Assembly: GCA_913009895.1 (NCBI GenBank)
Contig: CAJVXY010000009.1
Coordinates: forward strand, 1 to 64,000
Length of the DNA: 64,000 nt
Origin: an uncultured Acidiferrobacteraceae bacterium
GTDB lineage: Bacteria > Pseudomonadota > Gammaproteobacteria > Acidiferrobacterales > SZUA-150
Direction: 5' to 3'
In this document: one piece after another, positions 2,743 to 12,888 of the stretch
Position numbering within the stretch: the stretch's first letter is position 1
Layout: each line of letters starts with the position of its first letter
Notes under the pieces: generated by a model
Told to the model about the DNA's origin: nothing
Seen by the model: only the letters and a program-made list of their open reading frames with translations
The model's database searches: none
Program-made: the position numbers and the translations under genes

Positions 2743-2824
2743 GTATAACAAGGCAATCAAAAAGGACGTTTAAAAGCGGTGCTCCGCACGCACTTTTAAA
2801 CGCCTCTTATTTTAATCGTTATGC
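2743..2824 (+). other. attC site
   Basis: R'' GTATAAC (2743-2749) and R' GTTATGC (2818-2824) bound an 82-bp imperfect palindrome. ACGTTTAAAAG near 2766 pairs with CTTTTAAACG near 2792 around the loop CGGTGCTCCGCACG. R'' is complementary to the start of its own cassette (GTTATAC at 2258). Confidence 0.9.
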
Positions 2825-2834
2825 CTAAAAAACA

Positions 2835-3410
2835 ATGAAATACGAAACAGAATTTAAGGTTATTGATTTGATACTTGCTTCAGATTATGAAACGAGGGGA
2901 GTGGATGCGTTTAGCTTGTGCATTATAAAAATGGAAAGGCAGATTAGAAGAGTTTTTACTCATATAGTCTATCAATGTCCAAACTTAAGCACCAATGAAA
3001 TAGTGCCATTGATCGATGCTCTAGCAAATAATAAAAATATATACTTTAGGCATTTTATTGAGGGTATTAACTCAATTCATCCAAAGTCAGTTGAAGAAAT
3101 GTTCGGTGATAACTATCAAGAAGAAAAGAGTAAAATAGATAGCGCATTAGAAAAAAGAAATAAATTATTTCATGGTCAGTTGACTGGCGAAAATATTTCA
3201 AGACAAGATTTGATTGAATTTATTTCTCATATAAGGTGTTGGTGTTCTACGTGTGCAAGTTATTTTCAGAAAAACATTGGTTACGATGGGTTCGCTAGGA
3301 AGTCATATCAGAAATCATGCGAAACTGAAATATTTAAAGACATAAAATGGCCTTTTAAAAATGTTAAGGAATATTCTGAATTTTTAGTTGAATTGCAAAA
3401 AAAGGCATAA
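2835..3410 (+). CDS. HEPN-like protein with R-N-x-x-x-H motif (cassette gene)
   Basis: 191 residues, largely alpha-helical. The segment EKRNKLFHGQLT places R108-N109-K-L-F-H113, which fits the RX4-6H (often RNxxxH) signature of HEPN ribonuclease domains found in toxin-antitoxin, abortive-infection and RNA-processing proteins. Identification rests on motif and helical context only. A Cys-rich patch (RCWCSTCASYF) follows and could bind a metal or form disulfides. The TAA stop overlaps R'' of its attC (3405). The next cassette encodes a reverse transcriptase. No antitoxin shares this cassette, so it may be a stand-alone effector or a non-catalytic HEPN protein. Confidence 0.65.
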   Translation: MKYETEFKVIDLILASDYETRGVDAFSLCIIKMERQIRRVFTHIVYQCPNLSTNEIVPLIDALANNKNIYFRHFIEGINSIHPKSVEEMFGDNYQEEKSKIDSALEKRNKLFHGQLTGENISRQDLIEFISHIRCWCSTCASYFQKNIGYDGFARKSYQKSCETEIFKDIKWPFKNVKEYSEFLVELQKKA

Positions 3411-3506
3411 CAAAACGCTAAAGTCGGACTCCGAGACACGGCGGTTTTTTTGCGCTCTTTGCAAAAAAAATGCCGTGTCTCGGACCCGCTTAGCTTGGCG
3501 TTCGGC
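3405..3506 (+). other. attC site
   Basis: R'' GCATAAC (3405-3411), R' GTTCGGC (3500-3506), 102 bp. The long central stem is clear: CCGAGACACGGC (3431-3442) pairs with GCCGTGTCTCGG (3472-3483). L'' GCTAAAGTCGG pairs with L' CCGCTTAGC with an extra unpaired base. R'' matches the cassette start GTTATGCC (2818). Confidence 0.93.
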
Positions 3507-3529
3507 GTCATAAGAGGACTCGCTAAGGA

Positions 3530-5026
3530 ATGAAGCGGTTAATTGACCTAGGTAACGAAGAAGCACGCGCCCATTTCTTAAAGGGAAGCAGCTACTTCAA
3601 TGGTGACATGCCGCGATATATAAGTTTCGAGCCAATATTGCAGGAAGTCGCCAAGATTTTAGACGGTGGTAACTACGCTCAATTCAAGGCAAGTAATCCT
3701 GCCGACCTCCCTGATGTGAATTACAGCTTCATTGCCAATAAGGATGGGAAGTTTGCTTGGCGACCATACGAGCTAATGCATCCGGCGATATACGTATCTT
3801 TAGTTAATGTAATATGTGAAGCTGAAAACTGGAACCTCATCAAATCCCGCATGGCTGATTTCGAAAACGGTGTGGTTGATTGTTGTAGCGCGCCGGTCAT
3901 GTCAGTTGACCATCAGACAGACGTTGCAGCTCAGATTAAGAGCTGGTGGCAAGCGGTGGAGCAAAGGTCACTGACCTACTCCCTAGAATTTAGTCACCTA
4001 CTTCATACCGATGTAACCGATTGTTACGGCTCGTTGTATACACATAGTATTGCATGGGCCATTAACGGAATTGAGGAAGCCAAAAAGAAGAAGGGTAAGA
4101 ACTCACCACTTGGTAACAAGATTGATTTTCATATCCAAGCTAGCCGGTATGGCCAGACCAATGGTATTTCACAGGGTTCTGTTCTAATGGATTTTGTGGC
4201 TGAAATCGTACTCGGATATGTAGATGAGTTAATTAACACTGAGTTAGGCAACAGCACTGACATCCGCATTCTTAGATACAGAGACGACTATCGTATCTTC
4301 GCGAACAGCGATGAACGTGCAGAAGAAGTTCTTAAACTTGTAAGCGATAAGTTGCGTAGAGTTGGCATGAAATTAGGAGTTTCGAAGACATTTTCCTGCC
4401 GTAATGTTGTGGAAGGCTCTATCAAACCAGACAAGCTCGCAGGGATTGAACTTCAAGATCTTGGTAAATCAAACGCCAAGACGATCCAAAAGCAACTGAT
4501 GAGACTCCATGCTTTCGGTCAACGATATCCTAATAGCGGAGCCCTACGTCGATTGGTAAGCGAGTTTCATACTAACGTTTCTGTCCAGAAAGAGGCGCCA
4601 GATGACCTCGAAGTCCAAGTGGCCATTGCAACCGATATTGCATATGTTTCACCTGCAACGTTCCCGGCGGTCGCTGGTATCTTGAGTCACCTGATTGCGC
4701 TTGCACCTAATGAGGAAAAGATGGGCCTTTGGACTAAGGTGCGGGATAAAATGAAGCGAGTTTCGTATAACGGATATCTTGAAATTTGGTTGCAGCGAGT
4801 GACCCAACCAAAGGCCGTTGGAATTCAGTTTGAGAGCGACGAGCCTATTTGCCAAATCGTCAACGGTGGATCACCTCAACTGTGGGAGTGTGGCTGGATT
4901 TCGAATGACGCTTTAATAAATGCAATTGACATCAAGAAACTTGTCGTAGCAGACGTTGCTGACGCTGCAGAAGTGATTGAGCCTGAAGAAATTGAGCTAT
5001 TCAAACAAAACGCCTGGGCTTATTAG
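3530..5026 (+). CDS. Reverse transcriptase, abortive-infection/DRT-like (cassette gene)
   Basis: 498 residues. Visible RT motifs: HTDVTDCYGSLYTHSIAWA with catalytic D161 (about 159-177), GQTNGISQGSVLMDF (208-222), RYRDD at 249-253 with the catalytic Asp pair D252-D253, and GMKLGVSKT (279-287). The SLYTHSIAWA form is typical of the unknown-group RTs that include AbiA/AbiK/Abi-P2 and defence-associated RTs, rather than group II introns or retrons. No maturase or endonuclease domain is seen. The C-terminal 200 residues are helical and of unknown role. Start ATG 3530 follows AAGAGG at 3512. The cassette is bounded by attC sites at 3500 and 5058. Role in phage defence is inferred from family resemblance. 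Confidence 0.88.
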   Translation: MKRLIDLGNEEARAHFLKGSSYFNGDMPRYISFEPILQEVAKILDGGNYAQFKASNPADLPDVNYSFIANKDGKFAWRPYELMHPAIYVSLVNVICEAENWNLIKSRMADFENGVVDCCSAPVMSVDHQTDVAAQIKSWWQAVEQRSLTYSLEFSHLLHTDVTDCYGSLYTHSIAWAINGIEEAKKKKGKNSPLGNKIDFHIQASRYGQTNGISQGSVLMDFVAEIVLGYVDELINTELGNSTDIRILRYRDDYRIFANSDERAEEVLKLVSDKLRRVGMKLGVSKTFSCRNVVEGSIKPDKLAGIELQDLGKSNAKTIQKQLMRLHAFGQRYPNSGALRRLVSEFHTNVSVQKEAPDDLEVQVAIATDIAYVSPATFPAVAGILSHLIALAPNEEKMGLWTKVRDKMKRVSYNGYLEIWLQRVTQPKAVGIQFESDEPICQIVNGGSPQLWECGWISNDALINAIDIKKLVVADVADAAEVIEPEEIELFKQNAWAY

Positions 5027-5057
5027 GAAACGTATGTTGAAGTGCTAAGATAATTAC

Positions 5058-5129
5058 GCCGAACAAGGCGCTCGTTCGGACGCAAACTACGCTGCGCTTC
5101 GTTTGCGCCGCAAAACTTTATCGTTATGT
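5058..5129 (+). other. attC site
   Basis: R'' GCCGAAC (5058-5064), R' GTTATGT (5123-5129), 72 bp. CGCAAAC (5081-5087) pairs with GTTTGCG (5101-5107) around a short loop. R'' is an exact inverse of the opening of the reverse-transcriptase cassette (TTCGGCGT at 3501), fixing that cassette at 3501-5123. Confidence 0.92.
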
Positions 5130-5191
5130 ACTACAAGGCATTCTTTTCGTGCTAAAATGAACAACATAGTGAATTAATAGGTGATAATGAT

Positions 5192-5422
5192 ATGTCCACG
5201 AAAATGAAGCAAGTTATTGAAGAGATTAAAGATTTAACCGCTCAAGAAAGGGCATTGGTTGCTCATTGCTTAATATCATCCCTTGAAAATAAGCATGACG
5301 ACGGTGTTGATGAAGAATGGGCTGAACTTGCTGAGAAGCGGTATAAAGAGCTTGAAACGGGAGCAGTTCAAGGCGTTACGTGGAATGAAATAAAGAAGGA
5401 GATTAAAGGCCAGGATGCCTAA
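5192..5422 (+). CDS. Addiction-module antitoxin-like protein
   Basis: 76 residues, acidic and helical. Start MSTKMKQVIEEIKDLTAQERALVAHCLISSLE and the C-terminal WNEIKKEIKG fit the short addiction-module component family whose genes precede ParE/RelE toxins. It would neutralise the toxin encoded by the next gene, with which it overlaps by 8 bp (translational coupling). ATG 5192 lies after AGGTGA (5181-5186). Both genes share one cassette. Autoregulation of the pair is usual but no operator could be defined. Confidence 0.82.
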   Translation: MSTKMKQVIEEIKDLTAQERALVAHCLISSLENKHDDGVDEEWAELAEKRYKELETGAVQGVTWNEIKKEIKGQDA

Positions 5423-5708
5423 GTTAATTTTCCACCCAGATATTTCATTAGAAGTAAAAAATTCCTATCAATGGTATCAGGAACAAGCCAGTGGCCTGGG
5501 TGATGACTTCCTTCACGAGCTTGAAGGGGCTTATGAAGCAATTGAGGAGTTGCCTGAAACGTGGCCAAAATTTCAGAGGGGGTTTCGAAGATTTTTACTA
5601 AGCAAGTTTCCATTCTCAGTCATTTATAGTTCAAAACAAACCCCACCATATGTTGTTGCAGTCATGCATAATAGTAGAAAACCAGGCTATTGGCTAGATC
5701 GTACATAA
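5415..5708 (+). CDS. ParE/RelE-superfamily toxin
   Basis: 97 residues with the typical pattern: FHPDISLEVKNSYQWYQEQASGLGDDFLHELE, then FRRFLLSKFPFSVIYSS and a C-terminal VVAVMHNSRKPGYW. The helical hairpin plus beta-sheet core and the HNSRKPGYW ending are common in ParE-like toxins, which act on gyrase or, in RelE relatives, on ribosome-bound mRNA. Which target applies cannot be told from sequence. The stop codon TAA sits inside the R'' box ACATAAC of the cassette's attC. Confidence 0.85.
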   Translation: MPKLIFHPDISLEVKNSYQWYQEQASGLGDDFLHELEGAYEAIEELPETWPKFQRGFRRFLLSKFPFSVIYSSKQTPPYVVAVMHNSRKPGYWLDRT

Positions 5709-5942
5709 CCAGGCGTTTCACCCGAACAAAAAAACGCGATGCTAAATAAGGAACACGCATTAAATGAAAGATAGTATTTCGTATTTATTTAGGGTCAGAG
5801 TGAAAACTCAAACATTATTGCATAGAATTTTTACTCCGATAATACACGAGCAATAAAACTAATAAAAAGATAAACTTAAGCTCATAATATCCAGACGGGT
5901 CGATTTCTTTTACCGCGCCTGCCGTATACTCAATCGTTAGAC
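5703..5942 (+). other. Compound attC region, 240 bp, with damaged internal core
   Basis: R'' ACATAAC (5703-5709) matches this cassette's own start (GTTATGTAC at 5123), and a good R' GTTAGAC lies at 5936-5942. In between, a second L'-like end ACTCAAAC (5806-5813) is followed by ATT instead of GTT, as if an inner R' had mutated. The 5844-5940 part resembles 1713-1807. The simplest reading is an attC with a dead R', followed by a gene-less cassette remnant that supplies the working right end. No gene is seen in 5709-5977. Confidence 0.6.
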
Positions 5943-5977
5943 CAATAAATTCGTATACAAGCTAAATTGAGGAAGTA

Positions 5978-6757
5978 ATGATAAAAAGGCATAGAATACA
6001 ATTTCCAAAGGGCGAATTACTCAACATCAACCAGGACGAAGCCTATTTCTACCTTCAGGGATCAGGTGGTAAGAGGAAAATAAGGTTCCACGACTACGAT
6101 GAAATTTATCAAGTGCCAGGCCTGTATGAACAAATATTTTATGATCGCCTAAAATGCACATCACCTGGTAAAGTAACATCAATACTTGAATCCGCCGTAA
6201 AACAATATCAAAACAATTTTTCTGAGCTTAGGATATTGGATTTAGGTGCAGGCAATGGAATGATGGGAGAGGAATTAAAAAAGCACGGTGTTTCTCGTTT
6301 AATAGGCGTGGATATAATTCCCGAGGCTTATGATGCAGTAATCCGGGACAGGCCGGGAGTATATGACGCATATTATGTTGAGGATTTCACTAAGTTAGAA
6401 AAAGAAAAAAAGGAAGAAATAAAATCGTGGCAATGTGATTGCATGGTAACAGTTGCCGCCCTTGGTTTCGGTGATATCCCAACAAAAGCATTTTTGGAAG
6501 CGTTTAATATTATTAAAAGCAAAGCGTGGGTGGCCTTTAATATCAAGGAAACCTTCTTTGATATAAGCGATGAATCAGGCTTTTCAAAAATGATCAGGGA
6601 ATTAATATTTTCCAAATATCTTGATATTTATTACATAGAACGCTATCGACATAGATTATCAATTGAGGGAGAGCCGCTGTATTACTTCGCAATAACAGGA
6701 TGGAAAACGTCAGATGTTCCTGACGACTTTTTGGAGTCAAAAGGCATCATGGCCTAA
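5978..6757 (+). CDS. SAM-dependent methyltransferase (cassette gene)
   Basis: 259 residues. Motif I ILDLGAGNGMMGEEL (about 86-100) and the acidic end of strand 2 (LIGVDIIPEAYDA) mark a class I Rossmann-fold S-adenosylmethionine methyltransferase. An N-terminal extension of about 80 residues precedes it. A later ITGWKTSD strand closes the fold. Substrate unknown; a small-molecule or protein role is as likely as nucleic acid, since no NPPY/DPPY motif is seen. Weak GAGG lies before ATG 5978. The cassette begins at GTTAGAC (5936), and its stop overlaps R'' GCCTAAC. Confidence 0.85.
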   Translation: MIKRHRIQFPKGELLNINQDEAYFYLQGSGGKRKIRFHDYDEIYQVPGLYEQIFYDRLKCTSPGKVTSILESAVKQYQNNFSELRILDLGAGNGMMGEELKKHGVSRLIGVDIIPEAYDAVIRDRPGVYDAYYVEDFTKLEKEKKEEIKSWQCDCMVTVAALGFGDIPTKAFLEAFNIIKSKAWVAFNIKETFFDISDESGFSKMIRELIFSKYLDIYYIERYRHRLSIEGEPLYYFAITGWKTSDVPDDFLESKGIMA

Positions 6758-6886
6758 CAAGGCAAATGAACTCGGACAGTTTAAAGCGCTCTTTCTCTTG
6801 CGTACCATTCCGCTACGCAGCATTCTAACACAAAAGAAAAAGCGCTTTAAATATTTAGGTTCAGAGCGAATACTCAAACATTTTTT
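6752..6886 (+). other. Terminal attC with probable dead R' box
   Basis: R'' GCCTAAC (6752-6758) matches the cassette start GTTAGAC. Stem arms AGTTTAAAGCGCT (6779-6791) and AGCGCTTTAAA (6841-6851) pair well. The right end reads ACTCAAAC followed by ATTTTTT where GTTRRRY is expected, so the recombination core appears mutated. This marks the right edge of the array. 6887-6964 holds nothing recognisable. Confidence 0.6.
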
Positions 6887-9843: not shown

Positions 9844-9944
9844 TCACCCCTTGGCCGGTGCCGGCCAACTGGGCAACGCTTGCAATCCCCCCTCAAGATA
9901 CACGGCATCAAAACCGCGCTGGCTCATAATAAAGGCCGAGACCT
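9844..9944 (-). repeat. 101-bp direct repeat: duplicated 3' end of the cNMP/rhodanese gene
   Basis: An ungapped copy of 11567-11667, with about 9 differences by eye (roughly 91 percent identity), in the same orientation. It begins exactly at the stop codon and encodes the last 33 codons (AFIMSQRGFDAVYLEGGLQ...). It is cut off from any upstream coding sequence, hence a gene remnant. The two copies bracket brnT/brnA and the protease gene. Confidence 0.85.
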
Positions 9945-10025
9945 TTATTATTCCCTGATTTACACCATAAAAAATCATCTTACCTTTGCCTTGTAATGTA
10001 CACCATTTGTACATACACTTAGGTT

Positions 10026-10268
10026 CTGGATACAGAGTGGGACCCACGGAAGGCCGCTGACAATCTTCGAAAACATGGTGTCGATTTCGCAGATGCTGTG
10101 ATTGCTTTGGAGGATGAAAATGCCCTTACCATCGAAGATAGAGGCCATGACATCGACATTCTCTATGTTATTCATACATACCGTGATCATGATTGTATCC
10201 GCATTATTTCAGCCAGAAAAGCAGACCGTAGCGAAGCCAGACAATATTACCGAGGGTTAAAATTATGA
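10026..10268 (+). pseudogene. brnT: Degenerate BrnT toxin gene
   Basis: Translating from 10026 gives the BrnT N-terminal pattern EWDPRKAADNLRKHGV and the C-terminal IRIISARKADRSEARQYY. No ATG/GTG/TTG is available: an in-frame TAG lies at 10020-10022 and the Met position is CTG. The middle lacks about a dozen residues present in typical BrnT (the ERF...G...GR strand-turn between TIEDRGHD and ILYVIHTYR). It is probably an inactive or weak RNase toxin. The stop TGA overlaps the brnA ATG (ATGA), as in intact brnTA operons. Confidence 0.75.
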
Positions 10269-11566: not shown

Positions 11567-11667
11567 TCACCCCTTCCCAGGCGCTGGCCAACTGGGCAAC
11601 GACTGCAATCCCCCTTCCAGATACACGGCATCAAAACCGCGCTGGCTCATAATAAAGGCCGAGACCT
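11567..11667 (-). repeat. 101-bp direct repeat, intact-gene copy
   Basis: The 3' end of the cNMP-binding/rhodanese gene. The second copy is at 9844-9944. The intact gene at this end and a displaced 3' fragment at the other is the pattern left when an element integrates into the 3' end of a gene and rebuilds it. No integrase is present between the copies. Confidence 0.82.
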
Positions 11668-12661
11668 GGCTACGGCCGCTGGTAAGACAACAAAGAATAT
11701 ATTTTTTGTCTTTATCGAGCTGAGGCAAGGTTCGGCGCAGTGCATTGAGCGGTAAGTTCCTGGCAATTTTTATGGCACCGCTGGCAAATTCTCCCGGTGT
11801 TCGCACATCGATCAGGATTGCACCCTGCTTCATTAATACTTCGGCTTTTGGCATGGGCAAGGACGCCACCAGTGGTTCCCTGAGTAAATCATTAAAGTCG
11901 GTCTTGTTCAGTCGCATGAGCTCGCCCTCTCCCATGGAAATGACATTGGCATTTCTCGGGGCATTGGATAACAAGGCCTCTTCGCCAAAAATATCGCCGT
12001 CTTTTAGTTCGGCCAGGATATGCACCTTGCCATCGGCGCCCTTGCGGGAGACGTTAAACTTGCCACTCTTGACTATATAATAGTATTCGCCCACCTCGCC
12101 CTGCTTGATAATAATCTGGCCGGCTGTGACGGGCACTGACTCCAGGCGTGAGAAAACTTCATTCATGCTGGCGGCCGGTAATTTTTCAAAGGCACTGCCG
12201 CGCAACATTTCCATCATCCACTCACCATCAATATCGATTGAAAGCTCGTCTACCTCGAGACCGTCATCTGCCCAGTCTTCCGATAACTGATCCATGGTCA
12301 GTAACCGGTCAATTTGCATGCTGTCGATTTTGGCAACCCGGGCACTGTCCACGACCTTGCCGGTATATTGTCTTGGTCGCAACTGGGCCAGGGCATAACT
12401 GGCCTCGTCGGTGTCGGCAGTGATATTTCTTTTGGCGCCGGTGCTTTTTGAGTCGAGGGCGACTTCGCCTGCAAGCAGGTATATAGACAAGGTGTCGCTA
12501 CTGCCTTCTTTGAAAATGACGGTGCCTTTTTTGAGGTTTTCAATCGTGGCGTCTTCGAACAAGGTCAGGAGATTGCTGTCGCTGAGGGAATTCAGGGGTA
12601 TAAAATTGCGCAGCCTTTCCAGGTCAGCTGTTTTTTGCTCGTTTTCGCTGGATTCTGACAT
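11567..12661 (-). CDS. Cyclic-nucleotide-binding and rhodanese-domain protein
   Basis: 364 residues from the MSESSENEQ start (12661). An ATG at 12742 would add 27 residues of poor character. Two Crp-like cNMP-binding domains: about 20-110 (GTVIFKEGSSDTLSIYLLAGEV) and about 150-255 (GQIIIKQGEVGEYYYIVKSG...GDIFGEEALLSNAPRNANV). A C-terminal rhodanese domain carries the loop CCLTSGRS, with an active-site Cys able to form persulfide. No DNA-binding helix-turn-helix is seen. It could link a nucleotide signal to sulfur transfer; ligand unknown. It faces away from mltF across a 227-bp gap. Confidence 0.88.
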   Translation of the reverse strand: MSESSENEQKTADLERLRNFIPLNSLSDSNLLTLFEDATIENLKKGTVIFKEGSSDTLSIYLLAGEVALDSKSTGAKRNITADTDEASYALAQLRPRQYTGKVVDSARVAKIDSMQIDRLLTMDQLSEDWADDGLEVDELSIDIDGEWMMEMLRGSAFEKLPAASMNEVFSRLESVPVTAGQIIIKQGEVGEYYYIVKSGKFNVSRKGADGKVHILAELKDGDIFGEEALLSNAPRNANVISMGEGELMRLNKTDFNDLLREPLVASLPMPKAEVLMKQGAILIDVRTPGEFASGAIKIARNLPLNALRRTLPQLDKDKKYILCCLTSGRSQVSAFIMSQRGFDAVYLEGGLQSLPSWPAPGKG

Positions 12662-12888
12662 AGTCCTGTTTGCTATCTTATTTTTGTCTTCTGAATCAAG
12701 AGTCTGGCCCGCAGATACTAACATTAGGCGATTAATTATCATACATATGGTCGCGGCTTCGGAAATAGTTACATTTGCAACGATTTAACAGCCAAATTGT
12801 CGAAACATAAGAATATTTTAGATTTACAATAATAACAGCCATGTAATTTTACATCGGTAAGTATTTCCAGTGACGCTATACTATTTTT

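Follow-up and report, generated by a model that had tools for sequence, protein, structure and literature searches.

The window, by which we mean the whole stretch of 64,000 nucleotides that was analysed, opens with an integron cassette array, which stands at the left end of contig C9 in a draft genome of 2.85 Mb. At least seven cassettes, all on the + strand, extend from position 139 to about 6850, with crossover points at 685 (G^TTAGCC), 1803 (G^TTAGAAC), 2258 (G^TTATACG), 2818 (G^TTATGCC), 3500 (G^TTCGGCG), 5123 (G^TTATGTAC) and 5936 (G^TTAGACC). The G+C content of the cassettes varied from 30% to 46%, a spread expected for genes of mixed origin. The cassette at 1804–2258 encodes a 121-aa protein (1821–2186) and is marked by the junction GTTAGAAC and an attC at 2181–2264, and that at 2259–2818, the termini of which match over 8 bases, encodes a 148-aa protein without assigned function (2290–2736; attC at 2743–2824). 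It is followed by a cassette at 2819–3500 (termini GTTATGCCT and AGGCATAAC, matching at 9/9 bases), and by the reverse transcriptase (RT) cassette described below. Beyond this, a cassette at 5124–5936 (termini GTTATGTAC and GTACATAAC, 9/9) carries an antitoxin-like gene (5192–5422; PF09720, E=7e-13) and a 97-aa partner (5415–5708). The protein encoded at 2835–3410, directly before the RT cassette, weakly resembled HEPN_RiboL-PSP (Pfam E=3e-5, under the curated cut-off), and its gene is possibly another toxin or defence gene.

Two further features of the array were recorded. A 110-nt segment is present twice, at 1707–1816 and 5840–5949 (78% identical), each copy finishing just beyond the crossover of a different cassette; it may represent a promoter cassette without a gene, or else a long variant of attC. 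Positions 71–136 correspond to what we take to be an Illumina adapter (P7 end, index and TruSeq read-2 primer) assembled after poly-T, and the first ~137 bases of the window are an artefact that truncates the array on its left.

The RT cassette is 1,623 bp long (3501–5123, + strand, as are all of its features given here) and is bounded by the crossovers at 3500/3501 and 5123/5124. It contains one uninterrupted, intact open reading frame of 498 codons (3530–5026). In an integron cassette the R″ box at the 3′ end is complementary to the cassette's own 5′ end. The R″ box of the RT cassette is CGCCGAAC at 5057–5064, and the 5′ end of the cassette, GTTCGGCGT, is the exact reverse complement of its own R″ sequence, ACGCCGAAC, at 9/9 bases, whereas against the other five junctions tested only the invariant GTT was matched. 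Over all six cassettes in this test, four R″ boxes found their best match (8–9 bases) in their own upstream junction; the remaining two matched their own junction at 5–6 bases, in one case not uniquely. The RT cassette takes its left end from the R′ box of the preceding attC (3405–3506; GCATAAC...GTTCGGC), which folds into a strong hairpin (z=−8.6 relative to dinucleotide shuffles). The cassette's own attC (5058–5129; GCCGAACAAGGCGCT...CGTTATGT) has good R″ and R′ boxes and a weak hairpin, no more stable than shuffled sequences (z=+0.3). As its 3′ half is also similar to that of the attC at 2743–2824 (74%), the site may be a hybrid, or may have decayed. A search with the strict RYYYAAC/GTTRRRY pattern did not recover the real attC sites. 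The earlier examination of the DNA, made from the letters alone (the sequence-only reading), had described the RT as a single-gene integron cassette, and the G^TT crossovers at both ends, the 9/9 match of its own ends and the array context bear this out: the RT is the sole gene of an integron cassette, a conclusion that we hold with great confidence.

The same reading had likened the protein to AbiK/DRT-type RTs. Comparison with the PADLOC families confirmed an Abi-type RT but not AbiK: the best family was AbiP2 (PDLC03744; E=1.5e-189), which covered residues 1–495 of 498, followed by UG14 (E=3.8e-48), whereas the AbiK profile aligned with the RT core only (E=1.3e-27). The nearest neighbours by PADLOC profile are thus the Abi-P2/UG14/DRT6/DRT4 group, and the AbiP2 profile was matched by all of the aligned relatives (54/54). 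The top sequence match in the PDB was Abi-P2 itself (7r08; phmmer E=1e-69, residues 1–445), and Pfam RVT_1 was detected at residues 157–290 (E=1e-9). Identity to the Abi-P2 of E. coli P2 phages is only ~31%. That the RT belongs to the Abi-P2 family, rather than being an AbiK or a generic DRT, is as good as certain.

An AlphaFold2 model built with 54 aligned sequences (pLDDT 89.6, pTM 0.90) had the layout of 7r08, with palm and fingers and a C-terminal helical domain. In Foldseek searches it matched 7r08_A along the entire chain (E=7e-27, TM 0.85/0.87); the six top PDB fold matches were the six chains of 7r08 (TM 0.82–0.85), and the matches that came after, at TM 0.53–0.64, were DRT4 (0.64), DRT6, UG15 and AbiK (~0.54). 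The C-terminal 200 residues had previously gone unrecognised, and structure prediction had been proposed for residues 300–498. This region (about residues 300–498; 4427–5023) is in fact spanned by the AbiP2 profile and by the whole-chain fold match (TM 0.85), and in the model it is mostly helical, with pLDDT mostly 80–97. Since the fold ranking puts the 7r08 chains first, the model identifies it as the Abi-P2 helical domain.

All three catalytic residues named from the sequence, D161, D252 and D253, are present, and D161 and the Y250-R-D252-D253 motif are near-invariant among 88 aligned relatives. D161 (codon at 4010–4012) is D in 85/85 relatives that cover the position; the YRDD motif (Y250–D253) lies at 4277–4288. 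Abi-P2 has been described as a trimer that is protein-primed at Tyr61 and makes DNA without a template or a nucleic-acid primer; the Y61F substitution destroys this synthesis but Y46F does not, and E. coli gains protection against T5 from orf570 of P2-EC30 (Figiel et al., PMC9508834). In the gapless phmmer alignment to 7r08, Tyr61 corresponds to Y30 of the RT (codon at 3617–3619) and the dispensable Tyr46 to H15. Y30 was Y in 84/84 relatives covering the site, whereas position 15 was H, Y or F, as would be expected if DNA synthesis is primed at Y30.

Relatives were collected from one genome per species, and the best 80 of 441 were taken. The nearest of them are 60–89% identical, and their hosts include Aeromonas, Thiocystis, Geothrix, Chloroflexota, Planctomycetota, Acidobacteriota, Bipolaricaulota, Cyanobacteriota, candidate phyla and others. 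Within the host's own class, full-length Abi-P2 was found in only 3/369 genomes, together with one broken copy. Cassette status was assessed by inspection of the flanks and a scan for attC sites, and a relative was scored as a cassette only if a box or hairpin adjoined the RT or the ends matched, a judgement made partly by eye; an initial attC score failed to tell real sites apart from the chromosomal background, and a second gave about one chance match per 13 kb per strand. Scored in this way, 12/77 tree rows (the window, L050, L054, L055, L058, L059, L062, L063, L077, L081, L086 and L124) show one or more cassette boundaries at the RT. They fall in six phyla (Pseudomonadota, Planctomycetota, Fidelibacterota, Candidatus Abawacabacteria, Chloroflexota and Candidatus Eisenbacteria), of which that of any single contig may be wrong, as several of the genomes are metagenome bins. 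L106, outside the tree, also has a cassette boundary, and in L051 (Geothrix), L065 and L089 (Thiocystis, 89% identical) a left end only was seen. The clearest array among the relatives is L058, with four similar attCs at 3295–3423, 3806–3935, 5549–5677 and 6647–6775.

In a maximum-likelihood tree the window was placed within a set of 14 rows (SH-aLRT 93), of which eight are cassettes and three others have just a left end. Cassette carriage changed state at least eight times across the tree and so has been gained or lost repeatedly; the number of changes does not itself separate gain from loss. An 8-base end-match test was positive at 6/83 loci, compared with 0.5 expected, although L071, one of these positives, appears to be a chance match. 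At the left junction of six relatives, identity was 88% over the 11 nt after the junction, a value that is partly due to construction because this motif served to align the loci, and 29%, the background level, over the 40 nt preceding it. Of 18 genomes with such relatives that were tested, eight had an integron integrase, none of them shown to lie on the contig of the RT itself. Eight attCs were aligned with MAFFT, and their loop lengths were too unlike for a covariance model. A close Abi-P2 cassette was not seen among the plasmid matches listed.

Two other observations on homologues were made. The Agrobacterium leguminum plasmid L043 carries at 4001–5407 a homologue, unannotated in PLSDB, that is 71% identical; its in-frame similarity ends after residue 435, and the C-terminus apparently continues in another frame. 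A Bacteroidota Abi-P2 clade (L118, L119, L121, L127 and L128; 42–43% identical) has a GTTATGGGC-like sequence upstream and/or a GCCCATAAC-like sequence downstream, L128 having them at both ends, and these flanking sequences suggest a second, cassette-like family.

The RT cassette leaves 29 nt before the open reading frame and about 30 nt between the stop codon and the attC, and the ~490 bases ahead of the gene contained no promoter-like site. With so short a leader, and lacking a recognisable promoter, the RT gene must be transcribed from a promoter further upstream. As at least five cassettes also stand ahead of it, the gene may be silent until shuffled forward. Such expression of silent cassettes after shuffling forward has been reviewed for Vibrio integrons (PMC12409362). 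The only recognisable intI of the genome is on another contig (C3:61858–62804; L010 7847–8823, − strand), where it has its own attI-side array to the right (attCs at L010 9395, 10549, 11055 and 14951), and it is split between two frames, which may reflect a real lesion or a draft-assembly error. Present mobility of the RT cassette is therefore unproven. The frameshifted integrase, the weak attC of the cassette, the lack of a promoter-like site close upstream and the five or more cassettes ahead of it are what would be seen in a fossil, that is, a former Abi-P2 gene left unexpressed and immobile in a dead array. However, the open reading frame is fully intact, its active site and priming tyrosine are conserved, the Thiocystis protein (L089) is 89% identical and the integrase lesion is possibly one of assembly only, and we consider a fossil unlikely.

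CRP/rhodanese fusion genes occur near both arrays of this genome (window 9844–10047 and 11567–12742; L010 6545–7588), and the one in the window has a truncated 3′ copy of itself ~1.6 kb away, which hints at duplication beside the arrays.

With regard to function, the RT is best compared with Abi-P2 of the P2-like prophages (orf570 of P2-EC30 and orf544 of P2-EC58; 7r08). They have in common the profile and fold over the whole length, the YRDD motif, the priming tyrosine, the helical domain and the single-gene organisation, and differ in sequence (~31% identity) and in vehicle, an integron cassette here. AbiK of Lactococcus (7r06/7r07/7z0z) is of the same mechanism class, being protein-primed, untemplated and oligomeric, as the RT is by inference, but its sequence alignment is limited to the RT core (E=1e-27), its TM is ~0.54 and its helical domain differs. 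DRT4, DRT6, UG14 and UG15 are the next-nearest neighbours in sequence or fold, with E-values at least 100 orders weaker than that of AbiP2. In the best-known Abi-P2 relatives, the infected cell shuts down and spread of the virus is stopped. A role in the integron, or in housekeeping or stress, for example through terminal-transferase-like DNA synthesis, could be argued from the fact that function was demonstrated in a relative only about 31% identical. The function of the family known so far is nevertheless phage exclusion, most relatives are without any integron, and the copies on viral contigs, plasmids and prophages fit a defence gene, so that a non-defence role appears improbable.

Other DRTs make use of a neighbouring RNA, and an attC is able to fold, which raises the idea of an RNA-templated enzyme (DRT2/DRT9-like) or a retron, with a non-coding RNA that overlaps either the attC or the open reading frame. 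We give this very little credence, because the cassette has 29 and about 30 nt to spare, an Rfam search of the window gave no match, the nearest families are Abi-P2/UG14/DRT6/DRT4 and not DRT2/DRT9, and, judged by eye, cassette and non-cassette relatives looked different in their downstream flanks. A retron RT was also rejected on the profile and fold evidence, which favours AbiP2. The sequence-only reading had likewise seen no partner gene or RNA, and this agrees with an open reading frame that fills the cassette and with the blank Rfam result; a protein-primed, untemplated enzyme requires no partner RNA. Group IIC-attC introns insert at attC sites, and the RT gene adjoins such sites and has an RVT_1 domain, but an intron-encoded RT can be set aside almost entirely, as the maturase profile TIGR04416 gave only E=7e-11 (far under its cut-off; AbiP2 gave 1.5e-189), Rfam matched no group II intron within the window, the frame fills the cassette and the model has TM 0.85 to Abi-P2 compared with ~0.4 to group II intron RTs, so that the placement among group II intron or retron RTs to which the sequence-only reading had been exposed was not found.

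Phage defence by the RT through protein-primed, untemplated DNA synthesis is thus the function that we think probable, by analogy with Abi-P2. The protein would assemble as a trimer, perhaps a hexamer, and begin DNA synthesis on its own Tyr30, from which the DNA would be extended without a template. Phage infection would unleash this activity and phage production would be stopped, probably by abortive infection. The RT would work without a partner protein or RNA, and for that reason would suit a single cassette.

Since 2025, integrons have been presented as reservoirs of compact defences against phage (Darracq, Kieffer and Getz, as related in PMC12409362 and PMC12444791), and the anti-phage cassettes of those studies, in the form in which they are summarised there, likewise place a compact defence between attC sites; the passages of the two articles that deal with them name no Abi-P2 or RT cassette. 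A literature search, to which the original 2025 cassette lists were external, did not find AbiP2 or Abi-P2 together with an integron. Abi-P2 and integron-borne defence genes are each already known separately, and it is the repeated carriage of an Abi-P2 clade in cassettes that looks to be an unreported vehicle. We propose tentatively, at slightly less than even confidence, that Abi-P2 circulates as integron cassettes in many phyla and that integrons, beside prophages and plasmids, are an important road between phyla. Close relatives have probably moved between phyla with the help of integron recombination as well as by other movement. A defence enzyme that needs neither a partner protein nor an RNA template is well suited to a small integron cassette, and if the pattern holds it would help to explain relatives 60–89% identical in Aeromonas, Thiocystis, Chloroflexota, Planctomycetota, Acidobacteriota and candidate phyla, and would provide compact natural Abi-P2 variants for tests of phage protection and untemplated synthesis.
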